Assembly: GCA_902786855.1 (NCBI GenBank)
Contig: CADAEH010000022.1
Span: 1-34,902 of the forward strand
Length of the DNA: 34,902 nucleotides
DNA from: an uncultured Eubacteriales bacterium
GTDB lineage: Bacteria > Bacillota > Clostridia > Peptostreptococcales > Anaerovoracaceae
Direction: 5' to 3'
The notes below the pieces were generated by a model. That model saw only the letters and a program-made list of their open reading frames with translations, made no database searches and was not told the DNA's origin. This document shows, in pieces, positions 12,466 to 34,347 of the stretch. The translations under genes and the position numbers were made by a program. Position 1 is the stretch's first letter. Every line of letters starts with the position of its first letter.

Positions 12466-13776
12466 ATGAGCCAAAGGAAACATTTGCCAAGCATCCACGT
12501 ACCTCATCATAAGAACACGGCTGCAAGCGAGACCGTGATCATGCCGGTACCGGATGAAGTTAGCATCAGCATGTCCCAGAATATTGGCGCTCCATGTAAG
12601 CCTCTTGTTGCAAAAGGGGATTACGTAAAGGTAGGACAGAGGATTGGCGATGTCGAGGCCTTTGTAAGCGCACCTATCTTTTCAAGCGTCAGCGGGACTG
12701 TTAAGGCTATCGAACAGGTCCGTGGCTCGATGGGTGGATTTGAAACACACATCGTGATCGAGACGGACAAAAAACAGGAGGTAAGCGAAGAGGTCAAAGT
12801 ACCTGAAATCAGCAGCTTTGAGGAATTCGTCAAAGCTGCAAGAGACAGTGGTATGGTAGGTCTCGGCGGAGCGTCCTTCCCGACACACGTCAAGCTGAAT
12901 CCTAAAAACCTGGATGAGTGTAAGTACCTCGTAGTAAATGCTGCAGAGTGCGAGCCATTCATTACAACTGACAACAGAATGATGGTAGAGAACGGTCAGG
13001 ATGTCGTTGACGGCATGAAGATGATCATGCACTGGCTTGGACTCGAAAAGGGCTTTATCGGTATCGAGACCAATAAGCCTGATGCCATTGCCAACATGAA
13101 GAGACTGTTCGAGCAGAACGAGATCAAGGACATGGAAGTAGTTCCTCTTCCATCCAGCTATCCTAAGGGAGCTGAGCGTGTTCTGGTCTATGAGGTCACC
13201 GGTCAGACAATGAACGCCGGAGTCCTTCCTGCACAGCTCGGAGTAATTCTCGACAACGTATCGACAATAGCTGTTCTTGCTGAATACATCAAGACAGGAA
13301 TGCCGATCGTAAGAAGAAGAGTCACAGTCGACGGAGACGCAGTAGCTGAGCCTAAGAACGTCTACGTTCCGATCGGAACAAGGATCGCTGATGTAGTTGC
13401 TTTCTGCGGCGGTTACAAAAAAGAGCCTCGCAAGATCATCATGGGCGGACCAATGATGGGAAGAGCTACCAAGGGCGACGACTCCCCGACAATGAAGAAC
13501 ACTTCAGCTATCCTCTGCTTCAGCCAGGATATGGCCGGCGTAAAGGAAGAGACAGCCTGCCTCAACTGCCAGCGCTGTCATACAGCGTGCCCGTTCGGAC
13601 TCATGCCTAGCATTTTCGCAGAGGCTTATGAGAACAAGGACGTCGACACACTCAACAGATTCAATGTCATGCAGTGCATGGAGTGCGGCAGCTGCTCATA
13701 CACATGTCCGGCAAGGCGTCCGCTGAGCATGACCAACAAGCTCGCTAAATTTATGGTAAAGGAGGCATCGAAGTAA
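12466..13776 (+). CDS. rnfC: Rnf complex subunit RnfC
   Basis: This 436-residue peripheral subunit begins the six-gene Rnf operon. It provides the NADH/FMN-binding site and passes electrons between NAD+ and the iron-sulfur chain. The glycine-rich GMVGLGGASFPTHVKL is the nucleotide-binding segment. Two [4Fe-4S] clusters are set by C365/C368/C371/C375 and C404/C407/C410/C414, each ending in CP. It lacks the long Ala/Lys repeat tail of proteobacterial RnfC, as is usual in Clostridia. AAAGGAG lies 12 bases before the ATG, slightly long, with AAGGG closer. Confidence 0.95.
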   Translation: MSQRKHLPSIHVPHHKNTAASETVIMPVPDEVSISMSQNIGAPCKPLVAKGDYVKVGQRIGDVEAFVSAPIFSSVSGTVKAIEQVRGSMGGFETHIVIETDKKQEVSEEVKVPEISSFEEFVKAARDSGMVGLGGASFPTHVKLNPKNLDECKYLVVNAAECEPFITTDNRMMVENGQDVVDGMKMIMHWLGLEKGFIGIETNKPDAIANMKRLFEQNEIKDMEVVPLPSSYPKGAERVLVYEVTGQTMNAGVLPAQLGVILDNVSTIAVLAEYIKTGMPIVRRRVTVDGDAVAEPKNVYVPIGTRIADVVAFCGGYKKEPRKIIMGGPMMGRATKGDDSPTMKNTSAILCFSQDMAGVKEETACLNCQRCHTACPFGLMPSIFAEAYENKDVDTLNRFNVMQCMECGSCSYTCPARRPLSMTNKLAKFMVKEASK

Positions 13777-13777
13777 T

Positions 13778-14749
13778 ATGGATAATAAGTTTCATACCAA
13801 TTTGATAGTATCCTCCGCACCTCATATCGTAACGGAATCGGATACTACCAGGCTGATGGGAACAGTCATACTCGCACTCGTTCCTGCCTGGGTTGCAAGT
13901 ATCTATATTTTCGGATTCAGAGCTCTGCTTCTGTCTGTAGTATGCGTTGCTGCAAGCGTACTCTTCGAGTATCTGTACAACGTGATCATGCACAGAAAGC
14001 AGACTGTCGGTGATCTTTCAGCAGCGCTGACAGGACTTCTGATCGCATTCAACGTTCCTTCGAACTTCCCGATCTGGCAGGCAATCATCGGATGCCTCTT
14101 CGCTATCGTGGTGGTCAAGCAGCTCTTCGGGGGCATTGGAAGGAACTTCAGTAACCCTGCTATTACAGCGAGAATATTCCTGTTCATCTCTTTCTCAGCT
14201 AACATGTCCACATGGCCGCTGACAAGACTCGAGAGAACAGCTGACGCTGTAACAGGAGCTACACCTCTTGCGATCCTCGCTGAGGGCAGCATAGATCAGC
14301 TCCCGGGTCTCGGCACACTCTTCCTCGGATTCCACGGAGGATCCACCGGAGAGGTCTGCGCACTCGCATTGATCATCGGCGGACTGTTCCTGATCATCCG
14401 CAAGGTAATCAGCCCGGTCATCCCATGTGCTTTCATCGGTACGGTATTCGTATACGCACTGATCGCAACCGGAAGCCTTTACATGGCACTGTTCCATGTA
14501 CTTGCAGGCGGCGTGCTCCTCGGAGCATTCTTCATGGCAACTGACTATGTCACATCGCCTAAGCTGCCTCTCGGACAGCTGATCTTCGGTATCGGCTGCG
14601 GTATCATCACAATGAGCATCAGGCTCTTCGGATCATATCCTGAAGGCGTATCCTTCTCGATCCTTCTGATGAATATCTGCACACCGCTGATCAACAACCT
14701 GTCCTACAAGTTCTACCTGAAGGAGGGAGGTGCTAAGAATGGAAAATAA
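13778..14749 (+). CDS. rnfD: Rnf complex subunit RnfD
   Basis: This is a 323-residue integral membrane protein with about nine or ten hydrophobic segments. It starts with the family's SSAPHIVTESDTTRLM stretch. The flavinylation-type motif DAVTGATPLA is intact, with the threonine that normally carries FMN by a phosphoester bond. It forms the membrane ion- and electron-conducting core with RnfA and RnfE. The ATG is one base after the rnfC stop, with AAAGGAGG inside rnfC. Its 3' end overlaps rnfG by 11 bases, which suggests coupled translation. Confidence 0.95.
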   Translation: MDNKFHTNLIVSSAPHIVTESDTTRLMGTVILALVPAWVASIYIFGFRALLLSVVCVAASVLFEYLYNVIMHRKQTVGDLSAALTGLLIAFNVPSNFPIWQAIIGCLFAIVVVKQLFGGIGRNFSNPAITARIFLFISFSANMSTWPLTRLERTADAVTGATPLAILAEGSIDQLPGLGTLFLGFHGGSTGEVCALALIIGGLFLIIRKVISPVIPCAFIGTVFVYALIATGSLYMALFHVLAGGVLLGAFFMATDYVTSPKLPLGQLIFGIGCGIITMSIRLFGSYPEGVSFSILLMNICTPLINNLSYKFYLKEGGAKNGK

Positions 14750-21542: not shown

Positions 21543-22217
21543 ATGAGGATACTGCTGGCAGAAGATGAAAAGGCTCTCTCGAGGGTAATCGTGAAGATTT
21601 TTGAGAGAAATAATTATTCGATAGATGCAGTGTATGACGGCGAAGAGGCTTTGGATTATCTGGAAGCGGGCAATTATGACTGCGCAGTTCTGGATATTAT
21701 GATGCCTAAGATGGACGGCATCACGGTGCTGAAGAAGCTGCGCGCGGGCGGGAGCAATCTGCCTGTGCTGATGCTCACCGCCAAGGCCGAGATAGATGAC
21801 AAGGTGCTCGGCCTTGACAGCGGCGCGAATTACTATCTGACCAAGCCGTTCGATGCCAAGGAATTGCTTGCCGCTGTCCGCGCGATCACACGCAAGACAT
21901 CCGAGGTCGATACCAAGCTGACTTTCGGAAATATCACTCTGGACCGTTCGACGTTCGAGCTGTCCTCACCATCCGGAAGCGTGAGACTTGCCAATAAGGA
22001 ATTCCAGATGCTCGAGATGCTCATGTCAGGTCCTAAGAATGTGATCTCTGTAGATCAGTTTATGGATCACATCTGGGGATATGACACCGATACTGAGAGC
22101 AATGTAGTATGGGTCTACATCTCATACCTCAGAAAGAAACTTGCAGCACTGGATGCAGACGTCAGGATAAAAGCGTCCCGCAATGCAGGATACTCACTTG
22201 AGATAATCACTGAATAA
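21543..22217 (+). CDS. OmpR/PhoB-family response regulator
   Basis: This is a 224-residue protein. The receiver domain (1-118) has the acidic pocket AEDE (E7, D8), phospho-acceptor D51 in VLDIMMP and the lysine in TKPFDAKE. The winged-helix DNA-binding domain (about 125-222) ends YISYLRKKL...RNAGYSLEI. It is paired with the histidine kinase 54 bases downstream. A tandem repeat upstream may be its own site. Targets are not known, but the VTC/DUF4956 operon begins just after the kinase. Confidence 0.95.
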   Translation: MRILLAEDEKALSRVIVKIFERNNYSIDAVYDGEEALDYLEAGNYDCAVLDIMMPKMDGITVLKKLRAGGSNLPVLMLTAKAEIDDKVLGLDSGANYYLTKPFDAKELLAAVRAITRKTSEVDTKLTFGNITLDRSTFELSSPSGSVRLANKEFQMLEMLMSGPKNVISVDQFMDHIWGYDTDTESNVVWVYISYLRKKLAALDADVRIKASRNAGYSLEIITE

Positions 22218-22271
22218 CAGATAATGCCCTCTATCCGGACGGAATTGTTTTTCAACAGAAACTGATTGACT

Positions 22272-23717
22272 ATGATCAAAAAACTGAAACGCAGATTCAT
22301 AACACTGGCAACAGTCTCCCTGATCGTCCTGATCTCAGGGATAGTAGCCGGAATGAATATCATGAACTATAACTCTGTCGTCAGCAATGCCGACAGCACG
22401 ATTGAGATGATCTCAGAAAATCAGGGACGTCTGCCGATGTATTACGGTTACGATGTCGACGATATTTTTGATGATATCGATGATCTGCTGTTCAATTACT
22501 ATGAAGGTGAAGGCGACAGAGACTACGATGATATAGATTCAGATACGAATGACTATTCTGAACGCAGATTCGCCCACGGAGGAAGGGCACCAAGGGGCTT
22601 TTCCAGAGATGAAGCTGAGGAGACCAGATACTTTACTGTGCTGGTCAACAGCTATGGCACTGCAGTCGGCATCAACACAGACAGGATATATGCCGTGGAC
22701 GAGGATCAGGCGGCCACGCTGGCGGAAGCGATAGTTGCAAGCGGCAGGACCAAGGGCTTTGTAGGAGATTACAGATATGCAGCTATCGATGAGAGCGGAT
22801 ATACCAGGGTCACATTCCTTGACTGCGGCCGTTCCCTTGATAATTTCAGAGAATTCCTGAAAGCGAGCATACTTATGTCCTTAATAGGACTTCTCGTGGT
22901 GTTCGCTGTTATCTGTTACTTTGCCGGCCGTATAGTCAGACCTGTCGCCGAGAGCTATGAAAAGCAGAAACGGTTCATCACCGATGCCGGCCACGAGATC
23001 AAAACACCACTCGCTATTATAAAAGCTAATATCGATGTAATGAGGATGGATCTTGAGGATATAGGTGAAGCAGTGATCAATGATGAAATAGATCCGGCTG
23101 ATGACACTGCAGCTGAGCCGCTTGAAAATGTCAGAGAACTGACAGGAAGCCTGAACGAGAGCCTGTCGGATATCGATGGGCAGGTCGACAGACTTACCAC
23201 GCTGACAAGTGATCTTGTCTATCTCTCCAGGATGGAAGAAGGCGACAATAAGCCGACAATGACTGAGATACCTGTTTCGGATATCGTGTCTGAGACAGCT
23301 GAACCGTTCAGCGCTCTTGCTCAGGAGAGAAGCAAAGAGCTGGATCTGGACATTACTCCTATGCTGTCGATGCAGGGGAGCACCAAAGAAATCGAGAAGC
23401 TGGTATCGATCCTCCTCGAGAATGCCATCAAGTATTCGCCGGGCGGTGATACGATCCATCTGAGCCTGGATAAAGAGGGCAAAAATATCGTCCTGGAAGT
23501 CAGGAACAAAACACTTGACCCGATAAACGATGAGGATCTCGCTCATGTATTTGAGAGGTTCTATCGTACAGATAAATCGCGCAATTCTGAAGCCGGCGGG
23601 CACGGCATCGGCCTGTCGATGGCGAGCGCGATAGTAAGTCTGCACGGCGGAAAGATCCGCGCACGCAGCGGTGACGGCACTGAGTTCATTGTCACCGCCA
23701 CCATGCCTGCACTGTAA
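22272..23717 (+). CDS. Sensor histidine kinase with acidic extracytoplasmic loop
   Basis: The ATG at 22272 gives 481 residues. A TTG two codons earlier is possible. The first membrane segment is at about 9-30 and the second at about 202-222. The loop between them has a very acidic stretch at 61-97 with 17 Asp/Glu in 37 residues. The dimerisation box is DAGHEIKTPLAII with phospho-acceptor H241. The ATPase domain shows LLENAIKYSPGG (N box), VFERFYRTDKSR (F box) and GHGIGLSMA (G box). An unusual acidic stretch around 268-285 is inserted in the dimerisation helices. The loop resembles the cation/peptide-sensing patches of PhoQ-type sensors, which suggests divalent cations or cationic peptides as signals (inference). 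Confidence 0.93.
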   Translation: MIKKLKRRFITLATVSLIVLISGIVAGMNIMNYNSVVSNADSTIEMISENQGRLPMYYGYDVDDIFDDIDDLLFNYYEGEGDRDYDDIDSDTNDYSERRFAHGGRAPRGFSRDEAEETRYFTVLVNSYGTAVGINTDRIYAVDEDQAATLAEAIVASGRTKGFVGDYRYAAIDESGYTRVTFLDCGRSLDNFREFLKASILMSLIGLLVVFAVICYFAGRIVRPVAESYEKQKRFITDAGHEIKTPLAIIKANIDVMRMDLEDIGEAVINDEIDPADDTAAEPLENVRELTGSLNESLSDIDGQVDRLTTLTSDLVYLSRMEEGDNKPTMTEIPVSDIVSETAEPFSALAQERSKELDLDITPMLSMQGSTKEIEKLVSILLENAIKYSPGGDTIHLSLDKEGKNIVLEVRNKTLDPINDEDLAHVFERFYRTDKSRNSEAGGHGIGLSMASAIVSLHGGKIRARSGDGTEFIVTATMPAL

Positions 23718-23763
23718 CAGCCATTGAAGCTCGTCACTGTGCAGAAACATTTCCGAAAAAACG

Positions 23764-23790
23764 AAGAGAGCTGCAATGAGCTCTCTTTTT
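23764..23790 (+). terminator. Terminator after the kinase gene (first of two)
   Basis: AAGAGAGCT (23764-23772) pairs perfectly with AGCTCTCTT (23779-23787) around GCAATG, then TTT. Confidence 0.88.
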
Positions 23791-23916: not shown

Positions 23917-24783
23917 ATGGCTTACCAGAAAGTATTCAAAAGGCATGAATTGAAATTCATAGTGACGAAAGAGCAGAAGGCTAAGATCCTGAAAGCAATG
24001 GAGCCGCACATGGTACCGGACAGATACGGAAGGTCAACCATCAGAAATATCTACTTTGATACAGATGATTACGTCCTCGCCCGGCATTCAATCGCGAAAC
24101 CTGATTTCAAGGAGAAGCTTCGTATCAGGAGTTACGCCAGAGCGGACCGTGAAAGTACTGTGTTCGTCGAGCTCAAGCGCAAGTTCGATCATGTGGTCTA
24201 TAAAAGAAGGGTAGCTATGGCTGAGGCAGAAGCTATGAAATGGATGCAAGGTACCAATGCCGGAGCTTCCGGACCTTCCGGAATAGACCTGGGAACTGAT
24301 CCGGGCGCAAGTGAGCAGATGCGAAAAGAGATCGATTACTTTCAGTCATATTACTCTGATCTCAGACCGATGGCCTTCCTTTCGTATAACAGGGAAGCTT
24401 ACAGGATGAAAGATCCTGAAGACAGCACTGCCATTTTCGGCAGCGATTTCCGGGTAACTTTTGACGAAAACATCCTGTGCCGTGACCACGACATATCACT
24501 TACATCAGAGATATACGGTGATCCGGTCCTGGATGAAGACAAAGTGCTCATGGAGCTAAAATGCTCAGGCGGGATCCCGCTCTGGATGACGAAAGTGCTT
24601 TCAGAAGAGCATATCTATAAAACTTCATTTTCAAAATACGGCACTGCATATAAGCAATACATTTTGCCGGAACTTCCAAAAGCACTAAACGGAGCCGCAG
24701 CGAAGGCGGGCGCAGGCTCGCAGGCTGCTGCAAAACAGCGGGGACCTGCCGTGCGCGGTCTTGCCGCATCTTATATAGGATAA
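23917..24783 (+). CDS. VTC-domain polyphosphate polymerase-like protein
   Basis: This is a 288-residue protein with AGGAGG six bases before the ATG. Family motifs in order are RHELKFIVT, RNIYFDTDDY, EKLRIRSYA, VFVELKRKF-VVYKRR, RPMAFLSYNREAY, RVTFDENI and VLMELKCSGGIP. These are the basic and acidic residues that line the polyphosphate tunnel in VTC4. A Gly/Ala/Ser-rich insertion lies at about 112-130, and a disordered Ala-rich tail ends the protein. No SPX domain or membrane segment is present. ATP-driven polyphosphate synthesis is the known activity of the yeast relative, while for bacterial members it is mostly inferred. It heads an operon with DUF4956, a common neighbour of this family as I recall. 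Confidence 0.88.
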   Translation: MAYQKVFKRHELKFIVTKEQKAKILKAMEPHMVPDRYGRSTIRNIYFDTDDYVLARHSIAKPDFKEKLRIRSYARADRESTVFVELKRKFDHVVYKRRVAMAEAEAMKWMQGTNAGASGPSGIDLGTDPGASEQMRKEIDYFQSYYSDLRPMAFLSYNREAYRMKDPEDSTAIFGSDFRVTFDENILCRDHDISLTSEIYGDPVLDEDKVLMELKCSGGIPLWMTKVLSEEHIYKTSFSKYGTAYKQYILPELPKALNGAAAKAGAGSQAAAKQRGPAVRGLAASYIG

Positions 24784-24814
24784 ATAAAGAACAGATAACA
24801 AGGGGGAAAACATA

Positions 24815-25507
24815 ATGGAAGCATTGCTGACAAGCATTTACGATACACAGCAGGCAACTGCGATAAACATTGCAGACTTCGGTATGGCGACGGGGGTGTC
24901 ACTCGCATTGGGCATGGTCATCGCAGTCACATACATGTACAAAACGAGATTCACGAAGAGCTTTGTGGTCACACTGGCGCTGCTGCCGGCGATCATCTGT
25001 GTGATCATCATGATGGTCAATGGGAGCATCGGAACCGGGATCGCTGTTGCAGGCGCATTCAGCCTGGTCAGATTCAGGTCAGTGCCGGGAACTGCGAAAG
25101 AGATCTGCACACTGTTTTTCGCGATGGCAACAGGTCTCATTGCCGGCACGGGTTACCTCGGTATCGCAGCCATATTCACTGCAGTCATGTGTCTGGCTTT
25201 TGTGATCTGCAGCAGCCTTGATTTCGGCAGCAGCCGGAACGCAGACAGATACAAGACGATAAGAGTCATGATACCTGAAGATCTCGACTACACCGGTGTA
25301 TTCGAAGATATCTTCAGCGAATACACATCATCATGCGAACTCATGCAGGTCAGGACAACCAATATGGGCAGCATGTTCCGGCTCACCTACGATGTAGTGC
25401 TCAAGGACCCTGCCTGTGAAAAAGAACTCATAGACAGAATGCGCTGCAGAAACGGAAACCTCGAGATCAACGTTTCAAGGCAGGCTACCATAGCAACAGA
25501 ATTGTAA
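24815..25507 (+). CDS. DUF4956 family membrane protein
   Basis: This is a 230-residue protein. About four membrane segments occupy residues 22-135, including the Gly-rich GTGIAVAGAFSLVRFRSVPGTAKEI and ATGLIAGTGYLGIAA, followed by a soluble C-terminal domain (about 140-230). The fold layout recalls MgtC-like proteins with an ACT-like tail, but homology is not certain. GGGGG lies eight bases before the ATG. It follows the VTC gene by 31 bases. The arrangement suggests a membrane partner of the polymerase, perhaps for polymer export or anchoring (inference). Confidence 0.85.
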   Translation: MEALLTSIYDTQQATAINIADFGMATGVSLALGMVIAVTYMYKTRFTKSFVVTLALLPAIICVIIMMVNGSIGTGIAVAGAFSLVRFRSVPGTAKEICTLFFAMATGLIAGTGYLGIAAIFTAVMCLAFVICSSLDFGSSRNADRYKTIRVMIPEDLDYTGVFEDIFSEYTSSCELMQVRTTNMGSMFRLTYDVVLKDPACEKELIDRMRCRNGNLEINVSRQATIATEL

Positions 25508-25515
25508 ACAGACAT

Positions 25516-25557
25516 GCTGCCACAGACCGGATAACGAAAAGCCGGTACCGGTGCAGC
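25516..25557 (+). promoter_or_regulatory. Intercistronic hairpin before the beta-helix lipoprotein gene
   Basis: GCTGC (25516-25520) pairs with GCAGC (25553-25557). Within it ACCGG (25526-25530) pairs with CCGGT (25542-25546). A second palindrome, CCGGTACCGG (25542-25551), competes with it. There is no U tract. It may adjust relative expression within the operon. Confidence 0.3.
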
Positions 25558-25577
25558 GTGAAAAAGGAGAACGATAC

Positions 25578-27332
25578 ATGAAATATAAATATCACGATAA
25601 TACAGCGCCTATAGCAGACAATACACAATCTTCATCGGTCTGCAGAAAGACAGGCAAAACAGCGCGCAGACTGCTCGCTCTGGCCGTTGCAATAATGCTG
25701 ATCTTTTCAGGCTGTGCCGGATCTCAGACGTCCGCTGGCAGCAGTACTTCATCAGTTACAGGCACATCTGCAGAGACCGGATCTGCAACCGCATATGATG
25801 CAGCAAGCAAAAGCGACATGTTCACGGAACGTGACCTTTCCGGAGAATACGATGAAGCTGCCGCACTCAGGATATCTCTTGACGGTACTTCAGCCTCGAT
25901 CACATCTGAAGGCACGGACACCACTTCAGCGGGCGTCAGCATAGACGGCAGCACTATCACGATCTCACAGGAGGGCACCTATATCCTCAGCGGTACTCTG
26001 ACCGATGGGATGATCATAGTAGATGCAGATGACAGCGCAAAGGTCCAGATAGTTCTGAACGGTGCAGATATCACGAGCAAAACATCGGCAGCTCTGTACG
26101 TTAAGTCCGCAGATAAAGTATTCGTAACTGCTGCTGCCGGCACGGAGAACGCGCTTGCAAACGGTGGTACATTTACTGCCATCGATGACAGCAACATAGA
26201 CGGGGCGGTTTTTGCAAAGGATGACATTACATTCAACGGAAGAGGAAACCTTACGGTCACATCTCCTGCAGGCCACGGCATCGTCGGAAAAGATGATGTG
26301 AAGATCGCGGGCGGTATACTGACGATCACTGCGGCGAAACACGGGATCCAGGCCAATGACAGCGCAAGATTTACTGAGGCTGATGTAATGATAACTGCAG
26401 GGACGGATGGTGTACATGTTTCAGACAACTCTGATGCAGAGGAAGGCACTGCCTCAGACAGCTATTTCTACATAGCTGTCGCATCGATGACGATAGAGGC
26501 AGGAGATGACGGTATACATGCAGATGCACAGGCTCTGATCGAAGGCGGAAGCATCAAGGTGACAAAATCATACGAGGGCATCGAAGCTCTGGATATCGAG
26601 ATAATCGGCGGAGACATTGATGTGAACGCAACAGATGACGGACTCAATGCAGCCGGTGGGAACTCTGCAGGAACAGAAGATAAAACTTTTGGAGAGGATG
26701 ACTGGTACGGGAACGGTCATGGCGGTTTCAGCGATGGCGGTACTGACGGTAGCATAAAGATCAGCGGCGGAAACACACATGTCACTGCCGGCGGTGACGG
26801 GATCGATTCAAACGGATCACTGGAGATCAGCGGCGGAACGACAGTAGTGGAAGGTCCGTCACAGGGAGACACTTCCGTACTCGACTTCAACTCAACAGGG
26901 ACGATCTCCGGCGGAGTCTTCATCGGTACAGGCGGAGCGGGTATGGCGCAGAACTTCAGCAGTGCTGAAGGACAGGGGCTGGTCGCGGTCAGTGTCGGCA
27001 GTCAGTCCGCAGGGACCACAGTCACGCTTAAGGACTCAGACGGCAATGTGGTCGCAGAACAGACACCGGAGCTTGAATATTCCGTAGTGTATATCAGCAC
27101 ACCTGATGTAAAACAGGGCGGCACGTACACTCTCACTGCCGGTACATACACTGAAAGCATAGAAATGACAGATGCGATCTACAGCAATATATCCGGAGGC
27201 ACCGGAAGAATGGGCGGACACGGACCGCATGGAGGCATGAAACGTTTAAACGGAAACGCTGATGCTGATGCCGGAGCGACAGAGATGCAGCCTCAGGAGA
27301 GAATGCAGCAGTCTGAAGGAAATGCGGTATAG
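25578..27332 (+). CDS. Cthe_2159-like beta-helix carbohydrate-binding lipoprotein
   Basis: The ATG at 25578, eight bases after AAAGGAG, gives 584 residues. The N-terminus has an unusually long polar region, then a hydrophobic stretch and a lipobox-like IFSGC with C46. A Ser/Thr/Ala linker follows. Residues about 95-490 form a right-handed beta-helix pattern with repeated G-I/L/V turns: GHGIVGKDD, KHGIQANDS, TDGVHVSDN, DDGIHADAQ, DDGLNAAGG and GDGIDSNGS. The Asp-rich turns are likely calcium sites, as in the Cthe_2159 (PF14262) family that binds cellulose and acidic sugars. The C-terminus is rich in Gly, His, Met and Asn. It is a surface protein, probably binding a glycan or polyanion. It follows DUF4956 by 70 bases. 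Confidence 0.85.
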   Translation: MKYKYHDNTAPIADNTQSSSVCRKTGKTARRLLALAVAIMLIFSGCAGSQTSAGSSTSSVTGTSAETGSATAYDAASKSDMFTERDLSGEYDEAAALRISLDGTSASITSEGTDTTSAGVSIDGSTITISQEGTYILSGTLTDGMIIVDADDSAKVQIVLNGADITSKTSAALYVKSADKVFVTAAAGTENALANGGTFTAIDDSNIDGAVFAKDDITFNGRGNLTVTSPAGHGIVGKDDVKIAGGILTITAAKHGIQANDSARFTEADVMITAGTDGVHVSDNSDAEEGTASDSYFYIAVASMTIEAGDDGIHADAQALIEGGSIKVTKSYEGIEALDIEIIGGDIDVNATDDGLNAAGGNSAGTEDKTFGEDDWYGNGHGGFSDGGTDGSIKISGGNTHVTAGGDGIDSNGSLEISGGTTVVEGPSQGDTSVLDFNSTGTISGGVFIGTGGAGMAQNFSSAEGQGLVAVSVGSQSAGTTVTLKDSDGNVVAEQTPELEYSVVYISTPDVKQGGTYTLTAGTYTESIEMTDAIYSNISGGTGRMGGHGPHGGMKRLNGNADADAGATEMQPQERMQQSEGNAV

Positions 27333-27379
27333 CAGACCTTAAATGCAGAACTCAGACAAACGATAAGGGAGGAACAGAA

Positions 27380-28603
27380 ATGGCTTCACGTTATATAGCA
27401 CTTATCCCGGCATATGAACCGGACAGAAAGATGCTTGAGGTCATCGCAGACCTCGGGAAAGCAGGTATGGATGTCGTCGTAGTCGATGACGGCAGCAGGC
27501 TGGAATACTCAGAGCTGTTTGAGCAGGCATGCGAGAGGCTCCCCGGCCAATCCGGAAAAAGTGTCACACTCCTCATACATGACACAAACAAGGGCAAAGG
27601 GGCAGCCCTCAGGACCGGACTGGATCATATCAATAATTTCATGGTCCTGAATGAAGCGAAAGCGACCGGGGAGGCCAATGGTAATGCAACTGAGAATATT
27701 GTCATAGTAACTCTCGATGCAGATGGGCAGCACCTTGCAAAAGACGCTGTAAAAGCTGCTCATGCTGCTGCAGGCAGCCCGGGCACGCTGGTGCTCGGAA
27801 GCCGCAGTCTGGATACGGGTGTTCCGCTCAGAAGCAGATTCGGCAACACAGTTACCAGAGGTGTTTTCAGGATTGCATCCGGCGTATCTGTACATGATAC
27901 ACAGACTGGTCTCAGGGCTTTTACAGCTGACATGATACCAATGCTCCTTGATATAAAGGGTGACCGATATGAATATGAGATCAATATGCTTCTCGAACTT
28001 GCCGGGAATGGTACCCGGATAAAGGAGATCCCGGCAGAGACCGTTTATATTGACGGGAACAGCTCATCACATTTTGATACAGTAAAAGACTCATACCGGA
28101 TCTATAAAGCGATCGGAAGATATATGCTCAGACACACTCCGGGACAGCTGCTGAAGTTCTCTGCGTCCTCATTTGCATCATTTCTCATAGACTACAGCAT
28201 GTATGCTTTGCTGATCCTGGCAGGTGCAGGCTTGATCACGGCTAATATCTGTGCAAGGATGGTCAGCGCGACCGCCAATTATGCGATCAACCGCAGCCTG
28301 GTATTTCGCAGCAGAAACAGCATAACAAGATCTGCATTGCAGTATTTTGGCCTCGCGGCGATGATACTTGCCGGCAACACGATAGTGCTGAGCTCACTGG
28401 TCGGTGCCGGTATCGGAAAGATGGCGGCCAAGGTCATAACAGAGCTGCTTTTCTTCACGATAAGCTGGATCGTGCAGAGATATGTGATCTTCTACAAGGA
28501 AGCAGAGACTGAGCCGGCAGGCAAAAGCTTTGCGCTTGAATACAAAGCGATACGTCCGAAGCGGCTCAGAGATGCATACACCAGAAGGAGGGAAAATGCT
28601 TAA
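27380..28603 (+). CDS. Glycosyltransferase family 2 / GtrA fusion
   Basis: This is a 407-residue protein with GGGAGG before the ATG. Residues 1-235 form a DPM1-like GT2 domain with VVVVDDGS (D36, D37), NKGKGAALRTGL and TLDADGQH (the D113-D115 motif). A small insertion at about 87-105 is rich in Asn, Ala and Glu. Residues about 252-380 form a GtrA domain with four membrane segments (LKFSASSFASFLIDYSMY start, NYAINRSLVF). It should transfer a sugar to a polyprenyl phosphate at the inner membrane face and help to flip it. Its 3' end overlaps the next gene by eight bases, so the genes are coupled. Confidence 0.92.
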   Translation: MASRYIALIPAYEPDRKMLEVIADLGKAGMDVVVVDDGSRLEYSELFEQACERLPGQSGKSVTLLIHDTNKGKGAALRTGLDHINNFMVLNEAKATGEANGNATENIVIVTLDADGQHLAKDAVKAAHAAAGSPGTLVLGSRSLDTGVPLRSRFGNTVTRGVFRIASGVSVHDTQTGLRAFTADMIPMLLDIKGDRYEYEINMLLELAGNGTRIKEIPAETVYIDGNSSSHFDTVKDSYRIYKAIGRYMLRHTPGQLLKFSASSFASFLIDYSMYALLILAGAGLITANICARMVSATANYAINRSLVFRSRNSITRSALQYFGLAAMILAGNTIVLSSLVGAGIGKMAAKVITELLFFTISWIVQRYVIFYKEAETEPAGKSFALEYKAIRPKRLRDAYTRRRENA

Positions 28604-29657
28604 GAAACACAGAACATTAACTGTATGTCTGATGATACTCCTTATCTTCACATCGTATGTGATAATGGATACTTTCTTCATAAAGAGAGTTTACGGGGAA
28701 GAACAGACAGATAGCAGCGAGAGTGTAACATCTGAACAGGAAGATCAGAGCTCACAGGCGGATCAGTTCAATTCAGAAGATACAGAAGGTTCCGGGAATA
28801 TGCATGACGGCTCTACCGGCGGAGGACATCGCGGACCCGGAAAGGGACATAAGCCGGGGACCCGGGGACAGTCAGAAGATGATGCGGACAGTTCACAGGG
28901 AGGAACAGAAAACACCGCCCAGAGCCAGGAAGCTTCAAGTGATTCCTATTCAGACGATAATATAAGCATCACGCTTAAAAGTTACAGGGAAAATGACACG
29001 ACGATATATGTTGCCGATGTAAAGGTTTCATCACCGGAATACCTTAAGACAGCATTTGCACAGGATTCTTATGGCAGGAACGTTACACAGAAGACCTCGG
29101 AGATCGCAGAAAATGCAGGTGCCATACTTGCTGTCAATGGTGATTACTACGGCGCTCAGGAAAAGGGCTACGTCATAAGGAACGGTAAACTTTACAGGGA
29201 TACGGCGATCAGCGGACAGGAAGACCTGGTCATATACAGCGACGGATCATTCGGGATAATAAATGAGGGAGAGGTCAGTGCCCAGAAACTTATTGATGCC
29301 GGAGCGGTCCAGACTCTCTCTTTCGGACCGGCGCTTGTTATAAATGGGAATATTTCCGTTACAGAAAATGAGGAGGTAGGAAAGGCGACTGCAAGCAATC
29401 CGAGGACAGCTGTCGGGATGATAAGCAAGACACATTATGTCTTCGTAGTATCTGACGGCAGAACGGATGAAAGCGCCGGACTTTCTCTGCACGAACTGGC
29501 TGAGTTCATGGATTCGCTTGGAGTGAAAACTGCATATAACCTCGACGGCGGAGGCTCATCAACAATGTATTTCAACGGGAGCGTAGTCAACAACCCGACC
29601 GGAGGAATGGGCAGCAAAGAAAGGAGTGTGAGTGACATTGTATACATCGGAAAGTGA
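28596..29657 (+). CDS. Membrane-anchored phosphodiester glycosidase-domain protein
   Basis: The ATG at 28596 follows AAGGAGGG and gives 353 residues. The frame extends upstream inside the glycosyltransferase gene but has no such site there. An N-terminal membrane segment (about 8-26) is followed by a long Ser/Glu/Asp/Gly linker to about residue 120. The C-terminal NAGPA-like domain (PF09992) shows ILAVNGDYYGA, NGKLYRDTA, RTAVGM, YVFVVSDGRTD, YNLDGGGSSTMYFNG and ERSVSDIVYIG. Family members cleave sugar-1-phosphodiester bonds outside the cell. A target in a phosphate-linked glycan fits the operon. A signal peptidase cut after the membrane segment is possible. Confidence 0.88.
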   Translation: MLKKHRTLTVCLMILLIFTSYVIMDTFFIKRVYGEEQTDSSESVTSEQEDQSSQADQFNSEDTEGSGNMHDGSTGGGHRGPGKGHKPGTRGQSEDDADSSQGGTENTAQSQEASSDSYSDDNISITLKSYRENDTTIYVADVKVSSPEYLKTAFAQDSYGRNVTQKTSEIAENAGAILAVNGDYYGAQEKGYVIRNGKLYRDTAISGQEDLVIYSDGSFGIINEGEVSAQKLIDAGAVQTLSFGPALVINGNISVTENEEVGKATASNPRTAVGMISKTHYVFVVSDGRTDESAGLSLHELAEFMDSLGVKTAYNLDGGGSSTMYFNGSVVNNPTGGMGSKERSVSDIVYIGK

Positions 29658-30096
29658 AAATATAAAAGACATCCGTACGGCACTGATCTACCTGATCATA
29701 TCGATGTTTCTCGCTGCTGCCGGAGCAGTATATGAACATTTCAGCTTCGGTGTTTATTCATACTACATGATCTACGCCTTCGCAGTACCGTTGGTCGGTG
29801 GTACGCTGCCGTTCATGCTGAGATATATGCGTGGAGTAAAGCAAAGTGGGTACCACTGCGAAAAGCATATCAGCACAGCAAAACAATATCTGTCTGCAGA
29901 GCTGTATCATGCTGCGATAGTGAGCCTGACTGTCGGAAGTATAATACAAGGGATCCTGGCTATCTGCGGTAGACCCAACAGTCTGACGTTAGGCTATCTT
30001 ATTGCGGCAGCGGTGCTGCTGGCTGCATCTGCGGCGTTGAAGATCATAAGCCGAGCTGAGATTTCAAAGCATCCTGCAGCACCTGAGAGAAGTTGA
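29632..30096 (+). CDS. Small four-helix membrane protein, unknown family
   Basis: The GTG at 29632 is five bases after AAGGAG and overlaps the preceding gene by 26 bases, giving 154 residues. Hydrophobic segments lie near 15-33, 38-58, 92-112 and 118-137. A short charged loop, RYMRGVKQSGYHCEKHISTAK, sits between the second and third. I do not recognise the family. Translational coupling ties it to the glycosidase-domain gene, so an accessory membrane role in the same pathway is likely. Its last 17 codons run antisense into hicB, so the C-terminus may be altered by the hicAB insertion. Confidence 0.65.
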   Translation: MTLYTSESENIKDIRTALIYLIISMFLAAAGAVYEHFSFGVYSYYMIYAFAVPLVGGTLPFMLRYMRGVKQSGYHCEKHISTAKQYLSAELYHAAIVSLTVGSIIQGILAICGRPNSLTLGYLIAAAVLLAASAALKIISRAEISKHPAAPERS

Positions 30097-30433
30097 TACC
30101 GCGAGCTGTTGCTATTTCGTTAAGCCACTCCGGAATGGACAGGGTTTTCTTGACTGCTTTATTGTTGTGGCGGCGCTGGTATTCGATGGTATCACATGCT
30201 ATATAATTGACAAATTGATTTTCTAAAGTCTTTATAGAGCTTAATTCACCGGGAGCGGGAACACTGCGCCCGGCTTTTTCATAATCAAAAAGGGTGAAGG
30301 CGAGAACATCTTCAGCCATATAAATTGCATCTTTAAGATCATCCCCACATGTATAACATCCTTCAAGATCCGGAAAAATAACGGAGTATCCATTCTTCTC
30401 CTGCGTAAAAATTGCGGGATATACATATCTCAT
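30044..30433 (-). CDS. hicB: HicB-family antitoxin
   Basis: This is a 129-residue protein. The N-terminal partial RNase-H-like fold is typical: YPAIFTQEKNGYSVIFPDLEGCYTCGDDLKDA. The C-terminal part (about 95-129) has SIPEWLNEIATARGINFSQVLQDAL, a ribbon-helix-helix or similar DNA-binding motif. It neutralises HicA and should repress its own promoter. Its ATG overlaps the hicA stop in ATGA. The 3' end overlaps the converging membrane-protein gene by 53 bases. Confidence 0.93.
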   Translation of the reverse strand: MRYVYPAIFTQEKNGYSVIFPDLEGCYTCGDDLKDAIYMAEDVLAFTLFDYEKAGRSVPAPGELSSIKTLENQFVNYIACDTIEYQRRHNNKAVKKTLSIPEWLNEIATARGINFSQVLQDALKSQLGL

Positions 30434-30636
30434 TTTGTCTGCCTCCTGCTGTCTATACCTGCATCTTTTAGAATTGCACTGAGTGTTCCACCGGGGATCT
30501 CTTTGCTCTTATGACGTGGGATCCTGAAATCCTTCCCGGTAATATTGCTGTGCCATTTGTCATGTTCCTTACCATGTTCAATGAAATAACAATCACCGCT
30601 TTTCTTGAGCAATTGTATGAGTTCTGAGACTTTCAT
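30430..30636 (-). CDS. hicA: HicA-family mRNA interferase toxin
   Basis: The ATG at 30636 gives 68 residues. A GTG two codons upstream is less likely. The dsRBD-like fold is recognisable: MKVSELIQLLKKSG, then GKEHDKWHS with the candidate catalytic H25, and FRIPRHKSKEIPGGTLSAILKDAGI. HicA cleaves mRNA independently of the ribosome when free of HicB. It is the first gene of the pair. Confidence 0.92.
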   Translation of the reverse strand: MKVSELIQLLKKSGDCYFIEHGKEHDKWHSNITGKDFRIPRHKSKEIPGGTLSAILKDAGIDSRRQTK

Positions 30637-30652
30637 ATGCACTGACCACTTT

Positions 30653-30879: not shown

Positions 30880-31383
30880 CTACTTCAATATTCTAAGGAT
30901 CATAGCAGACGCGATACCGACAAGGATGCCGGCTGCGATTCCGCTGAAAAGAAGCACCGGGAAGTAGAAGAAGATCCGCAGATCTTCAATGAGAGCGGCA
31001 GCTACGAATAGTTGACCGAGATTGTGTAATACACCGGCAGCCATGCTGACACCGACAACGGAGAAAAGGCCGGTCTTCTTCAGGCATATCATCCCTGCCA
31101 GGCTCACTATAGCTCCGGCAAGCGAATAGAGCATGCCGAATAGACCGTTAAAAAGGAGACCGGCGATAACGATCCTTATCACACTGACGCCTGCGGCTTC
31201 CTTCCAGCCGAACTTATACAGCGCTATGACTGTTACGATGTTGGCGATACCAAGTTTGATCCCCGGGATGCCCGGGTTGTATGGTATAATAGCTTCAATA
31301 TATGAGAATATAAGCGCCAGGGATGCCATGAGGGCGACTCTGGCGACGAACTGAGCAGAAGTATTACGAGGTGACTGAGTCAT
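30880..31383 (-). CDS. Gx transporter family protein (Hpre_diP_synt_I type)
   Basis: This is a 167-residue membrane protein with five or six hydrophobic segments and the family core IPGIKLGIANIVTVIALYKFG, GLFGMLYSLAGAIVSL and GVLHNLGQLFVAA. It is related to ECF transporter substrate subunits and often annotated as heptaprenyl diphosphate synthase component I. The real cargo is unknown, and a flavin or quinone-like compound would fit the neighbours. A strong AGGAGG lies before the ATG. It overlaps the NusG-II gene by 20 bases, so the two are coupled. Confidence 0.88.
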   Translation of the reverse strand: MTQSPRNTSAQFVARVALMASLALIFSYIEAIIPYNPGIPGIKLGIANIVTVIALYKFGWKEAAGVSVIRIVIAGLLFNGLFGMLYSLAGAIVSLAGMICLKKTGLFSVVGVSMAAGVLHNLGQLFVAAALIEDLRIFFYFPVLLFSGIAAGILVGIASAMILRILK

Positions 31384-31816
31384 AGCCGCCTCCTTCCTCT
31401 GATCCTCCGGAAACTATCCGCACTACCATGCGGTTGGGCAGACAGACGATGCTTTCACCCGGATGAGAGATCTCACCATGCTTGACGCACACCTGATTTT
31501 TGCATGAAGCTTCAGTAACTGATACCTTACCGCCGCTGATCGTGACCACGTTATAGTAGTCATACTGAGCAGAAGCAGGCTCATTGCTGTCTGCAGCAGG
31601 GGTATCAGCACGATTCTGCTTAGGTGCAGGCACGACAATAACACGGTCCTCGGCAAGCGGGTATCTGGCATAAAGATCCCCGCCGGACTCGATAACGACC
31701 TTAGCATCAGCTCCGGCATCAGTGCGAGACAGCGTCAGCGCAGCAGAAGCCGCCAGTCCGATCACGACCAGCGCGATGAATAGTATTATGTCTGCTTTTC
31801 GAATGTACTGTTTCAT
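31364..31816 (-). CDS. NusG domain II-containing membrane-anchored protein
   Basis: I chose the ATG at 31816 (150 residues, MKQYIRKADII). Another ATG lies two codons upstream. One N-terminal membrane segment (about 9-27) is followed by an extracytoplasmic NusG-II fold: VVTISGGKVSVTEASCKNQVCVKHG, then ESIVCLPNRMVVRI. The C-x4-C-x-x-H-G and PGESIVCLPN features are standard for the family. Function is unknown. It commonly accompanies Gx transporter and ApbE genes, so a part in extracytoplasmic flavin or redox biology is inferred. It starts 43 bases from the divergent apbE. Confidence 0.86.
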   Translation of the reverse strand: MKQYIRKADIILFIALVVIGLAASAALTLSRTDAGADAKVVIESGGDLYARYPLAEDRVIVVPAPKQNRADTPAADSNEPASAQYDYYNVVTISGGKVSVTEASCKNQVCVKHGEISHPGESIVCLPNRMVVRIVSGGSEEGGGYDSVTS

Positions 31817-31823
31817 CGTCATT

Positions 31824-31853
31824 AGTATACCACGTACTCAGGCTAAAGGTTAA
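31824..31853 (-). promoter_or_regulatory. Promoter of the NusG-II/Gx unit, possibly leaderless
   Basis: On the minus strand TTAACC (31848-31853) and TATACT (31824-31829) are 18 bases apart. The predicted start falls at about 31817, next to the ATG at 31816, and no clear ribosome binding site is present. This suggests a leaderless mRNA, unless another promoter exists. Confidence 0.4.
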
Positions 31854-31859
31854 TCAGCT

Positions 31860-32945
31860 ATGAATAGCAATTGCCGTAAAACAAAGCATAGAAAACTGAA
31901 TAAAATGACTGTAATCTGTGTACTGATCCTGATCATATCGATGCTATGCGGGTGCAGTCCGGGTGGTTCAGCAGCAGAGCCTGTCATGAAAGATGGCTAT
32001 TACCTCGATACTGTCTGCAGCGTATCTGTTTACCGCATGGCTGACGAACAGGGGAACGTGAAGGACGCGGCAGATATGGGCGAGGCTGCCGAAACTGCCA
32101 TAGATGAAGCTTTTGACCTGTGCAAAGATCTGGAATCCAAGACCAGCAGGACAAGGAAGGGCTCAGATATAAGCAGGATCAATTCCGCCGGCGGAGAATG
32201 GGTCGAAGTCAGTGACTATACTCTTGAACTCATACAAAAGGGCATGGAGTACTCCCATATATCCGATGGCGCTTTTGACATTACAGTTGGCGGACTCACA
32301 GAGCAATGGGACTTCCATGCACCGGAAGGTGAAGCTAAGCTGCCTGATGAAGAATCTCTTGCCGAAGCAGCCAAGCACGTCAATTACAGGAATATAGCAA
32401 TAGAGGGAAACAAAGTGCGCCTGACTGATCCTGAGACCAGACTTGATCTCGGAGGCATCGCGAAGGGTTATATAGGAGACAAAATGACAGAAGTCCTCGA
32501 GAGCAAAGGCGTCGTATCTGCAGTCATCAATCTGGGGGGCAACGTCATATGCATTGGCGGAAAAACAGATGAGGACGACTTTGTGATAGGGGTCGAGACG
32601 CCGTTCAGTGACCGGAAAGAAATAACCGGAAAGATCGATGCGCGGGACAAGACACTGGTAACATCAGGTGTATATGAACGCAGGATAGAGGTCGATGGAA
32701 AGACCTATCATCATATACTGGATACGAAGACCGGCTGGCCTGCAGAGACTGACCTCGATGCAGTGACTCTCACGGCAGACAAAGGACACTCGGGAGATAT
32801 CGATGCACTGAGCACCATTTGCCTTATAAAAGGCTATGAAGCTGCAAGCAAACTGATAGAAGATACAGATGGGGTCGAGGCTGTTTTCATACTGAAAGAT
32901 GGCACAACAGAACAGACCTCAGGGATGGAATTCGAAAAAGTGTAA
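31860..32945 (+). CDS. apbE: FAD:protein FMN transferase ApbE (lipoprotein)
   Basis: This is a 361-residue protein. The signal region ends in the lipobox MLCGC with C32 as the lipid-attached cysteine. Family motifs are YYLDTVCSVSVY, SDISRINSAGG, FDITVGGLTEQW, LDLGGIAKGYIGD, AVINLGGNV, HHILDTKTGWPA and GDIDALSTI. ApbE moves FMN from FAD to a Thr/Ser of target proteins outside the membrane. In this window the natural targets are RnfD and RnfG. AAAGGT lies nine bases before the ATG. It is divergent from the NusG-II gene and 13 bases before the SurE fusion. Confidence 0.95.
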   Translation: MNSNCRKTKHRKLNKMTVICVLILIISMLCGCSPGGSAAEPVMKDGYYLDTVCSVSVYRMADEQGNVKDAADMGEAAETAIDEAFDLCKDLESKTSRTRKGSDISRINSAGGEWVEVSDYTLELIQKGMEYSHISDGAFDITVGGLTEQWDFHAPEGEAKLPDEESLAEAAKHVNYRNIAIEGNKVRLTDPETRLDLGGIAKGYIGDKMTEVLESKGVVSAVINLGGNVICIGGKTDEDDFVIGVETPFSDRKEITGKIDARDKTLVTSGVYERRIEVDGKTYHHILDTKTGWPAETDLDAVTLTADKGHSGDIDALSTICLIKGYEAASKLIEDTDGVEAVFILKDGTTEQTSGMEFEKV

Positions 32946-32958
32946 AACAGGAGCAGCT

Positions 32959-34347
32959 ATGAAAAAGGTTTTAGTAACGAATGATGACGGGATCGACGTG
33001 AGGGGACTTACGGCTCTTGTCGAGGCTCTTGACGAAAAGTTCGAGGTATATGCTGTCGCTCCTATGGAGCAGCAGAGCGCCAAGAGCATGGCGGTCACTT
33101 TCCTCAGAGAGATAAGTGTAGAGAAAAAGGAAGTTCCCGGAGCGGCGGAAGCTTACGCCCTGGACGGTACACCTGTCGATTGTGTCCGTTGGGCGATAGA
33201 CTGGTTCAGTGAGAGGGGCATCACTTTTGACTATCTTTTCAGCGGCATCAATCTCGGCGCGAATGTCGGTATCGCGGCATATTACTCCGGGACGATCGGA
33301 GCCGCCCGTGAAGGAGCCATCTCGGGGATCAGGTCGATCGCTTTGTCAGTAGGTACCCACAAGTCCACCCATTTTGAATACATCTGCAGCCTTATTCCTA
33401 AACTGATAGAAATGTCAGAGAGCCTGAGTCCGCAGACGATACTCAGCGTCAATGCACCCGACCTGCCGCCTTGGGAAGTACGCGGGCTTCGCATAGCAGA
33501 AGTCGCTCCGAGCGGATATGCTGAAAAATACTCATTCAGTCTGGCGGGCGAGAATGAAGGAAGAGCAGCAAATGAGATCACATGGGAGCAGGCTGTGAAT
33601 TATCAGCTGGCCCAGCGTTCGCTCGATGGTAAGCCTTCTCCGGGTCATTCATCTGAGATAGGACCGGGCATGCTGAGCAGGACAGGTGATGTAATAACGG
33701 ATGCAGACCTCAGGTACGACCTTGATTGCGTCAGATATGGCTTTGCTGCCATTACTCCTCTTTCCAGCACAGTCTCTGATGAAATAGCACTTCGCAGGCT
33801 GCAGGGGAGATTTTCTTCTGATGACGTGATAGCGGTGTTCGTTGATGTGCAGGAAAACATCATGTCAGGCATCCGCATGAGAAACAGTCTTGCAGGCAGC
33901 CTCGGCAGATTTGCCGGATGTATCAGCAGACTTGATATACCTGCAGCAGTGACAGAGCTCCACGGATACGGCCGGGTGATACCGGAAATAGCTAAGGCGT
34001 TCAAAAGCGGCAGGGATGAAGATATCCTGAGGCGCGAATTGTCTGCGTGGGGATCGGCAGATTTTGCACGGGTGATAAAATCTTCATCGGCAAGAAAGGT
34101 AATGATCGCAGGCCTTGAGACACACTCAGCTGTGCTGCAGACGGCACTCGATTTCCTTCGCAGGGGATATGATGTCACTGTAATTGAAGACTGTTGTGCT
34201 TCGAGAGAAGGGCATGACCACAAGATCGCGGTCGAGAGGCTTAGAGACGCAGGATGCACTGTGACTACAAGCAGAGCTGCCGTAATGGAGCTCATCAGCA
34301 GCGTCAGCCATCCGGCAGCAGCGAGCGTTATGCGTATTCTTGGATAA
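32959..34347 (+). CDS. SurE nucleotidase fused to a degenerate isochorismatase-like domain
   Basis: The ATG at 32959 follows AGGAG and gives 462 residues. Residues 1-260 form SurE (5'/3'-nucleotidase): VTNDDGID with D9 and D10, QQSAKSMAVT with S40, YALDGTPVDCVRWA and SGINLGANVG. Residues about 288-462 resemble isochorismatase-like hydrolases, with FVDVQENIM (D296) and MIAGLETHSAV. The family's catalytic cysteine (THVCV) is alanine here (A391), and the usual lysine region reads RRELSAWGS. The second domain is therefore probably not a hydrolase and may bind a ligand or stabilise the dimer. The fusion is unusual, since SurE alone is about 250 residues. It is probably co-transcribed with apbE and ends at a terminator-like hairpin. 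Confidence 0.88.
   Translation: MKKVLVTNDDGIDVRGLTALVEALDEKFEVYAVAPMEQQSAKSMAVTFLREISVEKKEVPGAAEAYALDGTPVDCVRWAIDWFSERGITFDYLFSGINLGANVGIAAYYSGTIGAAREGAISGIRSIALSVGTHKSTHFEYICSLIPKLIEMSESLSPQTILSVNAPDLPPWEVRGLRIAEVAPSGYAEKYSFSLAGENEGRAANEITWEQAVNYQLAQRSLDGKPSPGHSSEIGPGMLSRTGDVITDADLRYDLDCVRYGFAAITPLSSTVSDEIALRRLQGRFSSDDVIAVFVDVQENIMSGIRMRNSLAGSLGRFAGCISRLDIPAAVTELHGYGRVIPEIAKAFKSGRDEDILRRELSAWGSADFARVIKSSSARKVMIAGLETHSAVLQTALDFLRRGYDVTVIEDCCASREGHDHKIAVERLRDAGCTVTTSRAAVMELISSVSHPAAASVMRILG

Follow-up and report, generated by a model that had tools for sequence, protein, structure and literature searches.

What do six tightly packed genes do that join a VTC-type polyphosphate polymerase domain to a polyprenyl-phosphate-type glycosyltransferase and a phosphodiester glycosidase domain, and do they do it together? 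The genes lie on a 34,902-nucleotide stretch of DNA (hereafter the window: positions 1 to 34,902 of contig CADAEH010000022.1, assembly GCA_902786855.1) from an uncultured Eubacteriales bacterium of the Anaerovoracaceae, which is contig 22 of a 62-contig, 2.9-Mb genome; the nearest named relatives of the glycosyltransferase protein come from Mogibacterium metagenome-assembled genomes (MAGs; goat ileum) and from MAGs titled uncultured Clostridiales. We find that the six genes are two modules which mostly live apart in other genomes. The first, module A, is predicted to comprise the VTC-type polymerase, a DUF4956 membrane protein and, as a rule, one exported protein, here a Cthe_2159-type beta-helix protein; the second, module B, is by its predicted domains a GT2-GtrA fusion, a NAGPA-type protein and an unnamed four-helix membrane protein. 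The reading that we favor, with a probability that we put at somewhat under 40%, is a two-module envelope system in which membrane-coupled synthesis and export of polyphosphate, with an extracellular binder, would be combined with the turnover of a polyprenyl-phosphate sugar. The features concerned are as follows:

21543..22217, + strand: OmpR/PhoB-type response regulator (Response_reg 1.2e-33, Trans_reg_C 6e-21), its position kept in most mapped relatives
22266..23717, + strand: membrane sensor histidine kinase (HATPase_c 5.7e-21, HisKA 2.5e-10), its position likewise kept in most mapped relatives
23763..23788, + strand: terminator-like hairpin in the gap between the kinase and VTC genes (10-pair stem and T-run)
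23917..24783, + strand: soluble protein with a VTC-type polyphosphate polymerase domain (PF09359 1.8e-38; Vtc4 3g3q 2.8e-21)
24815..25507, + strand: DUF4956 protein, read as an MgtC-like membrane domain with a ferredoxin/ACT-like C-terminal domain (PF16316 5.3e-17; hhalign to MgtC; structure model)
25578..27332, + strand: Cthe_2159-type beta-helix protein, probably exported (PF14262 2.3e-69; 4peu 7.5e-30)
27380..28603, + strand: GT2 polyprenyl-phosphate-type glycosyltransferase fused to a GtrA membrane domain (PF00535 1.5e-8, PF04138 7.9e-12)
28596..29657, + strand: NAGPA-type phosphodiester glycosidase domain with an N-terminal anchor or signal (PF09992 2.9e-39; 6pki 3e-11; 3ohg 2.1e-12)
29632..30096, + strand: four-helix membrane protein of an unnamed family (31-member alignment; AlphaFold2 mean predicted confidence, pLDDT, 84.9)

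Layout and conservation of the six-gene run

The six open reading frames (ORFs) occupy 23917-30096 with short gaps and two overlaps, one of 8 bases (the NAGPA start, ATG 28596, against the GT2-GtrA end, 28603) and one of 26 bases (29632-29657, between the NAGPA and four-helix genes); the strand, families and overlaps are those that the first-pass annotation of this stretch had reported. The ATGs at 25578 (Cthe_2159) and 28596 (NAGPA) are chosen starts, the longest ORFs beginning earlier, at 25551 and 28530. By hydropathy the VTC protein is soluble, the DUF4956, GT2-GtrA and last proteins are membrane proteins, and the Cthe_2159 and NAGPA proteins carry an N-terminal hydrophobic stretch. A hairpin scan for terminators, which found 16 sites against 6.4 in shuffles, gave a single + strand candidate within the run, a weak one at 24755. 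To judge from this layout, the six genes look like one operon, and the two-component pair upstream probably belongs with it.

The arrangement is not chance, because much of the genus keeps it. Among the 61 genomes covered by five family searches (37 of the genus, the window's own included, and 24 of the order), 20 of the 37 have matches to VTC, DUF4956, Cthe_2159, GT2-GtrA and NAGPA on one contig, collinear in 19 and with the VTC gene inverted and about 6 kb off in the twentieth (G015). The VTC pair thus stays next to the GT2 and NAGPA genes in related genomes, a result that upholds the first-pass grouping, and it does so again in a few other Bacillota and in Actinobacteria. Six further genus genomes are broken by contig ends (G001, G007, G012, G017, G020, G026), and four have another VTC arrangement: G028 and G032 carry a different VTC-DUF4956 pair followed by CotH, the pair of G035 is cut by a contig end so that its third gene is not visible, and G022 is considered below. 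In five (G005, G011, G013, G019, G021) the family searches found neither VTC nor DUF4956. In one of the broken genomes (L062, in G007) Cthe_2159 is split into two adjacent ORFs, with more partial matches on contig C28, perhaps a broken copy.

At the level of the order, the same 11 of 24 genomes carry VTC and DUF4956, close together in all 11, and in these neither GT2-GtrA nor NAGPA lies beside them. The gene after DUF4956 is CotH in 9 of the 10 loci scanned (G028, G032 and order relatives) and phospholipase-D-like in one. The DUF4956 gene was hidden by automatic ORF picking in three loci (L035, L036, L043), where its presence rests on the family search. Three loci (L032, L041, L045) have 200-1900 bases between VTC and DUF4956, against 31 in the window.

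The VTC-type polymerase, DUF4956 and the probably exported third protein

The VTC protein (288 amino acids) has VTC as the only family above its cut-off (PF09359, 132.8 bits against 23), and its profile matches yeast Vtc4 (3g3q) at an E-value of 2.8e-21. An alignment of 27 sequences has 25 invariant residues, among them R69, R71, K87, R159, R179, E213, K215, S239 and K240. R69 and R71 align with Vtc4 R264 and R266 in the significant main piece of the profile alignment, and E213 aligns with Vtc4 E426 in a second, non-significant piece only. The other invariant residues named are, we assume, active-site residues too. In yeast, changing R264, R266 and E426 together impairs the enzyme (PMC9911596; here as with the other papers cited, statements refer to the portions of the text available to us). 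Neither an SPX domain (Pfam) nor a transmembrane segment (hydropathy) was found in the protein, which is therefore not of the eukaryotic VTC-complex type. The set shares with the yeast complex (Vtc1/3/4), in which synthesis is coupled to translocation, the catalytic domain, key active-site residues and a membrane partner (PMC9911596), but differs from it in lacking SPX and a fused membrane domain and in having a partner that is MgtC-like by profile comparison.

The polymerase and this partner keep together across a phylum sample of 199 genomes drawn evenly, the window's own included: the 25 genomes with VTC are exactly those with DUF4956, and each family has 31 copies. Of these, 28 of the 30 other VTC copies have DUF4956 within about 100 bases, while in L221 CotH sits between the two and in G122 the two genes stand at the ends of two contigs. 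Compared by hhalign over the whole chain, DUF4956 matches MgtC with a probability of 94.8-95.0% over 194-195 columns, against at most 1.2% for eight non-MgtC controls, of which three had just one to three sequences behind them; 8 or 7 of the 20 fetched MgtC loci, in two runs, yielded usable ORFs. The relation is remote, since the Pfam scan gave no match of DUF4956 to MgtC (PF02308). In the structure model (mean pLDDT 74) the last 85 residues adopt a ferredoxin-like fold, which MgtC C-terminal domains match no better than other such folds do. This reading agrees with PMC12345266, which describes the Streptococcus intermedius protein SIR_1592 as having an MgtC transmembrane part and an ACT domain. 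That account, in its available portion, does not use the name DUF4956, and we infer from the gene order in PMC7112168 that SIR_1592 is a DUF4956 protein.

The third position is the variable one. The Cthe_2159 domain in the window (PF14262, 234 bits against a cut-off of 25.8), which matches the solved protein 4peu at 7.5e-30, belongs to a family that we take to bind calcium and acidic polysaccharide. The protein starts with a hydrophobic stretch ending in LIFSGC, and a pattern scan gave no lipobox match in it. Beside the 31 VTC-DUF4956 copies of the phylum sample stand CotH in 19 cases and Cthe_2159 in 7. All 20 CotH ORFs of the fetched phylum loci (19 loci, L211 having two) and 13 of 15 Cthe_2159 ORFs start with a hydrophobic stretch, so that the CotH partner, too, is probably exported. 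One VTC-DUF4956 pair (L206:4203-9253, in G249) is flanked by two Cthe_2159 genes.

The two kinds of partner largely follow the descent of the polymerase. On a tree of 66 VTC proteins, made by a quick method and weighed upon by twelve rows from one genus, the Cthe and CotH states need 2 changes when these two states alone are considered; when each is scored against every other row, CotH takes 8 changes (shuffled mean 21.5) and Cthe takes 4 (shuffled mean 20.5). The Bacillota Cthe-type VTCs make up 21 of the 25 rows of one starred branch, 25 of the 28 CotH rows fall on another with support 86 (L069, L210 and L222 being outside it), and the four actinobacterial Cthe-type VTCs form a long branch of their own.

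Part of this set has a published precedent. CotH, a poly-phosphate polymerase and DUF4956 lie beside pel genes in Gram-positive Pel loci (PMC7112168), and this accessory module resembles module A in placing a VTC-type polymerase next to DUF4956 and one exported protein, in its link to a surface polysaccharide and in a membrane partner for which an MgtC domain with a putative ACT domain is the reading (PMC7112168, PMC12345266). It differs in that the exported partner here is Cthe_2159 rather than CotH and that GT2-GtrA, NAGPA and the four-helix protein follow; no pel gene was recognized among the 23 window proteins scanned with Pfam, which include the genes flanking the operon on both sides. 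According to PMC12345266, its analyses failed to detect CotH-polymerase-DUF4956 synteny outside Pel. In five loci (L205, L207, L209, L213, L214), VTC, DUF4956 and CotH, with response regulator and histidine kinase genes nearby, have unrelated flanking genes, neither of the two flanking proteins scanned at each locus being a Pel protein; the set is therefore not tied to Pel. VTC, proteins called tubulin-like, and CotH also occur in a Clostridium perfringens locus (PMC2879425); L203:1001-7138, with HEAT-repeat and 713-amino-acid proteins beside CotH, DUF4956 and VTC, recalls the order of that NELoc-2 locus (PMC2879425). Among ten CotH-type loci with one to three flank proteins scanned each, L211 has a DUF3492/glycosyltransferase protein and L228 and L229 other glycosyltransferases. 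The view that the combined set is undescribed thus needs narrowing: VTC-DUF4956 with CotH was already in print, while the Cthe_2159-type branch, its joining to GT2-GtrA and NAGPA and the four-helix family did not turn up in our literature searches and are, as far as these go, new.

The GT2-GtrA, NAGPA and four-helix proteins

In module B, a single ORF has both GT2 (PF00535) and GtrA (PF04138) domains over their cut-offs, and its DDGS, DADGQH and DTQTGLRAF motifs are invariant in 21 sequences. It recalls the GtrAB and CsbB systems of transmembrane glycosylation, in which a GT2 enzyme makes the polyprenyl-phosphate sugar and a GtrA-type protein is the proposed flippase (PMC11898649, PMC7117936), with the difference that GT2 and GtrA are fused here and that NAGPA follows in place of a GT-C transferase; none was recognized by Pfam in the operon, the rest of the genome not having been searched for one. 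The NAGPA domain (PF09992, 135.4 bits against a cut-off of 25), behind a hydrophobic stretch at residues 11-29, matches the mannose-6-phosphate uncovering enzyme 6pki (3e-11) and 3ohg (2.1e-12) by profile and shares with such enzymes and DUF2233/NAGPA proteins the domain itself and the PR, DGR and NLDGG motifs, which are near-invariant in 62 sequences. The last protein has its own family, in which 31 sequences were aligned and which shows the motifs YExFSHGVYSxxM and GVLxIYGTTN; the protein is predicted to have four helices, the family has no consistent Pfam or NCBIfam match, and the ORF in the window has no family over its cut-off.

That these three genes recur together is seen in 80 named GT2-GtrA loci, ranked by similarity to the genus, of which 79 were counted after L136 was dropped for want of a separate GT2-GtrA label. 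The four-helix protein lies within 1.5 kb in 39 of the 79, Streptococcus sanguinis, S. gordonii and S. parasanguinis being among them. In 51 of the 80 loci GT2-GtrA and NAGPA stand without any module A gene within the fetched flanks.

Since NAGPA goes with the GT2-GtrA fusion, its likeliest substrate would be a polyprenyl-phosphate sugar or the product of one, not polyphosphate. A polyprenyl-phosphate sugar is itself a sugar-phosphate diester, the bond that NAGPA proteins cut, which makes NAGPA a natural candidate to free or transfer the sugar. The proposed reaction, in which the carrier lipid is freed from a polyprenyl-phosphate sugar, is the one suggested for UshA (YqjL), a proposed undecaprenyl-phosphate-sugar hydrolase; UshA is alpha-beta hydrolase-like, and NAGPA is of another family and predicted to lie outside (PMC11898649). 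The first-pass model had all six genes serve one phosphate-containing surface polymer, from synthesis and export to binding and trimming; this could be, for instance, a sugar-phosphate chain that the VTC pair helps to make and that NAGPA trims. Conservation of the six genes in the genus and their recurrence in Actinobacteria speak for such a polymer, but NAGPA follows GT2-GtrA even where module A is absent from the flanks, and besides VTC-DUF4956 no polymerase, ligase or polymer exporter was recognized in the operon with Pfam. We consider a single polymer unlikely; what stands of that model is a conserved, probably co-transcribed set with parts facing the surface, and what does not is its unity, the two modules being mostly apart.

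What the two modules may do together

The case for joint action of the modules, as the favored envelope system has it, comes from their co-occurrence. In the phylum sample (own genome excluded) 5 of 198 genomes have GT2-GtrA with an adjacent NAGPA, and all 5 carry Cthe_2159, VTC and DUF4956, against a background of 13/198 for Cthe_2159 and 24/198 for VTC (p 5e-7 and 2e-5, respectively); by family the count is 4/4 (p ~1e-5 to 2e-5, assuming 99 to 111 families in the sample). Of the 10 genomes with GT2-GtrA but no adjacent NAGPA, 1 has Cthe_2159 and 2 have VTC; when all 15 genomes with GT2-GtrA are counted, 7 have VTC (1.8 expected, p 5e-4). GT2-GtrA and VTC are on different contigs or more than 100 kb apart in the five co-occurring genomes, and the link is therefore one at the genome level. 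In G241, Cthe_2159 is preceded at a distance of 1.5 kb by a gene pair for NAGPA and the four-helix protein. Beyond the genus, the modules are physically joined in L090 and L097 (Bacillota), L121, L142, L156, L160 and L164. The order in L121 (Anaerosacchariphilus) is GT2-GtrA, NAGPA, regulator, kinase, VTC, DUF4956, Cthe_2159. The actinobacterial L142, L156, L160 and L164 have all five families, VTC and DUF4956 being confirmed by Pfam in each, in the order DUF4956-VTC-Cthe_2159-NAGPA-GT2-GtrA or NAGPA-GT2-GtrA-DUF4956-VTC-Cthe_2159; these are four of nine loci with actinobacterial titles (L103, L106, L141, L142, L143, L156, L160, L163, L164), with two of them on contigs shorter than 6 kb; two of the four come from Microbacterium. 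L143, with Pfam-confirmed DUF4956 and Cthe_2159, NAGPA and GT2-GtrA, was not accepted as a fifth, its VTC match reaching 24.5 bits.

In the envelope system as we picture it, the VTC protein would make polyphosphate from ATP at the inner membrane face, and DUF4956 might anchor, regulate or gate it and pass the chain outward as a putative channel to the exported beta-helix protein, which would hold or organize it outside. The GT2 half of the fusion would load a sugar on polyprenyl phosphate and the GtrA half flip the product; NAGPA at the outer face might then hydrolyze the sugar-phosphate-lipid diester or transfer its sugar, with the four-helix protein as a possible partner in module B. Together the modules could build or modify a surface matrix, probably under their own two-component regulator.

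Several observations weigh against this reading. On the side of module A, 5 of the 31 VTC copies lack both CotH and Cthe_2159 as neighbors, and in one genus genome (G022) VTC stands alone, without DUF4956. On the side of module B, the named GT2-GtrA loci speak for the pairing, 61 of the 79 having a same-strand NAGPA gene at most 200 bases away, but this figure is biased by the ranking on similarity; in the even phylum sample NAGPA adjoins 6 of 18 GT2-GtrA copies, own included, and the NAGPA search gives no match in G169 and G205, whose loci were not fetched. As for the joining of the two, no GT2-GtrA lies near VTC in that sample except in the window's own genome, only 11 of the 79 named loci have a same-strand VTC gene at 8 kb or less, and G002 and G010 keep VTC-DUF4956-Cthe_2159 with no NAGPA anywhere in the genome and no GT2-GtrA beside it. 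Moreover, shared ancestry and genome size confound the co-occurrence seen at genome level, for which the numbers are small and relatedness is only crudely removed. Such separability, and the lack of linkage in most other genomes, is what one would expect of two unrelated modules which share a promoter by chance in this genus and have no common product; the 5/5 co-occurrence and the joining in other orders in Actinobacteria, as well as in L097 and L121, argue the other way, and we consider that account unlikely.

The remaining counter-evidence, from S. intermedius, bears on the export step. Each of the four accessory mutants kept both Pel production and aggregation; for the deletion of the polymerase gene SIR_1593 no change in aggregation was reported, with Pel still present, whereas that of SIR_1592 raised Pel and lowered aggregation, and that of the CotH-like SIR_1594 lowered both (PMC12345266). 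In the CotH branch at least, these phenotypes favor regulation over export as the task of the membrane partner, and they lower the odds of the export model. They are in line with an account in which VTC and DUF4956 would be a cytoplasmic pair sensing phosphate or ATP, with DUF4956 as an MgtC-like regulator and an internal polyphosphate that tunes surface-polymer output, the exported protein and module B being co-controlled without touching polyphosphate. The MgtC-like and putatively ACT-like character of DUF4956 fits this account, as do the response regulator and histidine kinase genes that 12 of the 30 other VTC copies have at a distance of up to about 2.5 kb; of a purely internal sensor, one would not expect that CotH or Cthe_2159 stands next to VTC in 26 of 31 copies. 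We regard it as quite possible, if doubtful.

The export-based envelope system could, in a broader form, hold for many bacteria: a soluble VTC with an MgtC/ACT membrane protein would be a polyphosphate export machine feeding a dedicated exported partner, either CotH, a kinase-like protein that outside the cell would need a non-ATP phosphate donor, or a calcium-binding beta-helix protein that would form a calcium-polyphosphate matrix. The latter branch would work with GT2-GtrA and NAGPA, with NAGPA as the missing outer-face enzyme that takes the sugar off polyprenyl phosphate. Taken as a whole, this extension is rather unlikely.

The window also holds other genes of note. Convergent to the operon on the - strand (30044-30642) Pfam recognizes HicB-like antitoxin and HicA toxin genes, the 3' end of hicB overlapping the last operon gene by 53 bases. 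Beyond them, at 30880-32945, come heptaprenyl diphosphate synthase component I and NusG domain II proteins (- strand) and then an ApbE flavin transferase (+ strand), and RnfC and RnfD genes lie at 12466-14749; this neighborhood presumably resembles flavin-based electron transfer gene sets. One ORF at 32899-34347 (+ strand) is an apparent fusion of SurE and isochorismatase domains.

In the portion of the review literature available, PPK1 figures as the principal enzyme of polyphosphate synthesis in bacteria, and VTC is charted across eukaryotes only (PMC10657179). The matching occurrence of VTC and an MgtC-type protein, usually beside one exported protein, makes a second bacterial route to polyphosphate, one that may face outward, a testable proposal, and shows that the VTC-DUF4956 set also exists away from Pel loci. 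For secreted phosphodiester glycosidases of the NAGPA family, the recurrent trio of GT2-GtrA, NAGPA and four-helix protein offers a candidate function, and it marks out a family of small membrane proteins. As for the organism itself, this Mogibacterium-related anaerobe and many of its close relatives carry a fixed six-gene operon whose content suggests an uncharacterized way of building or decorating the cell surface.

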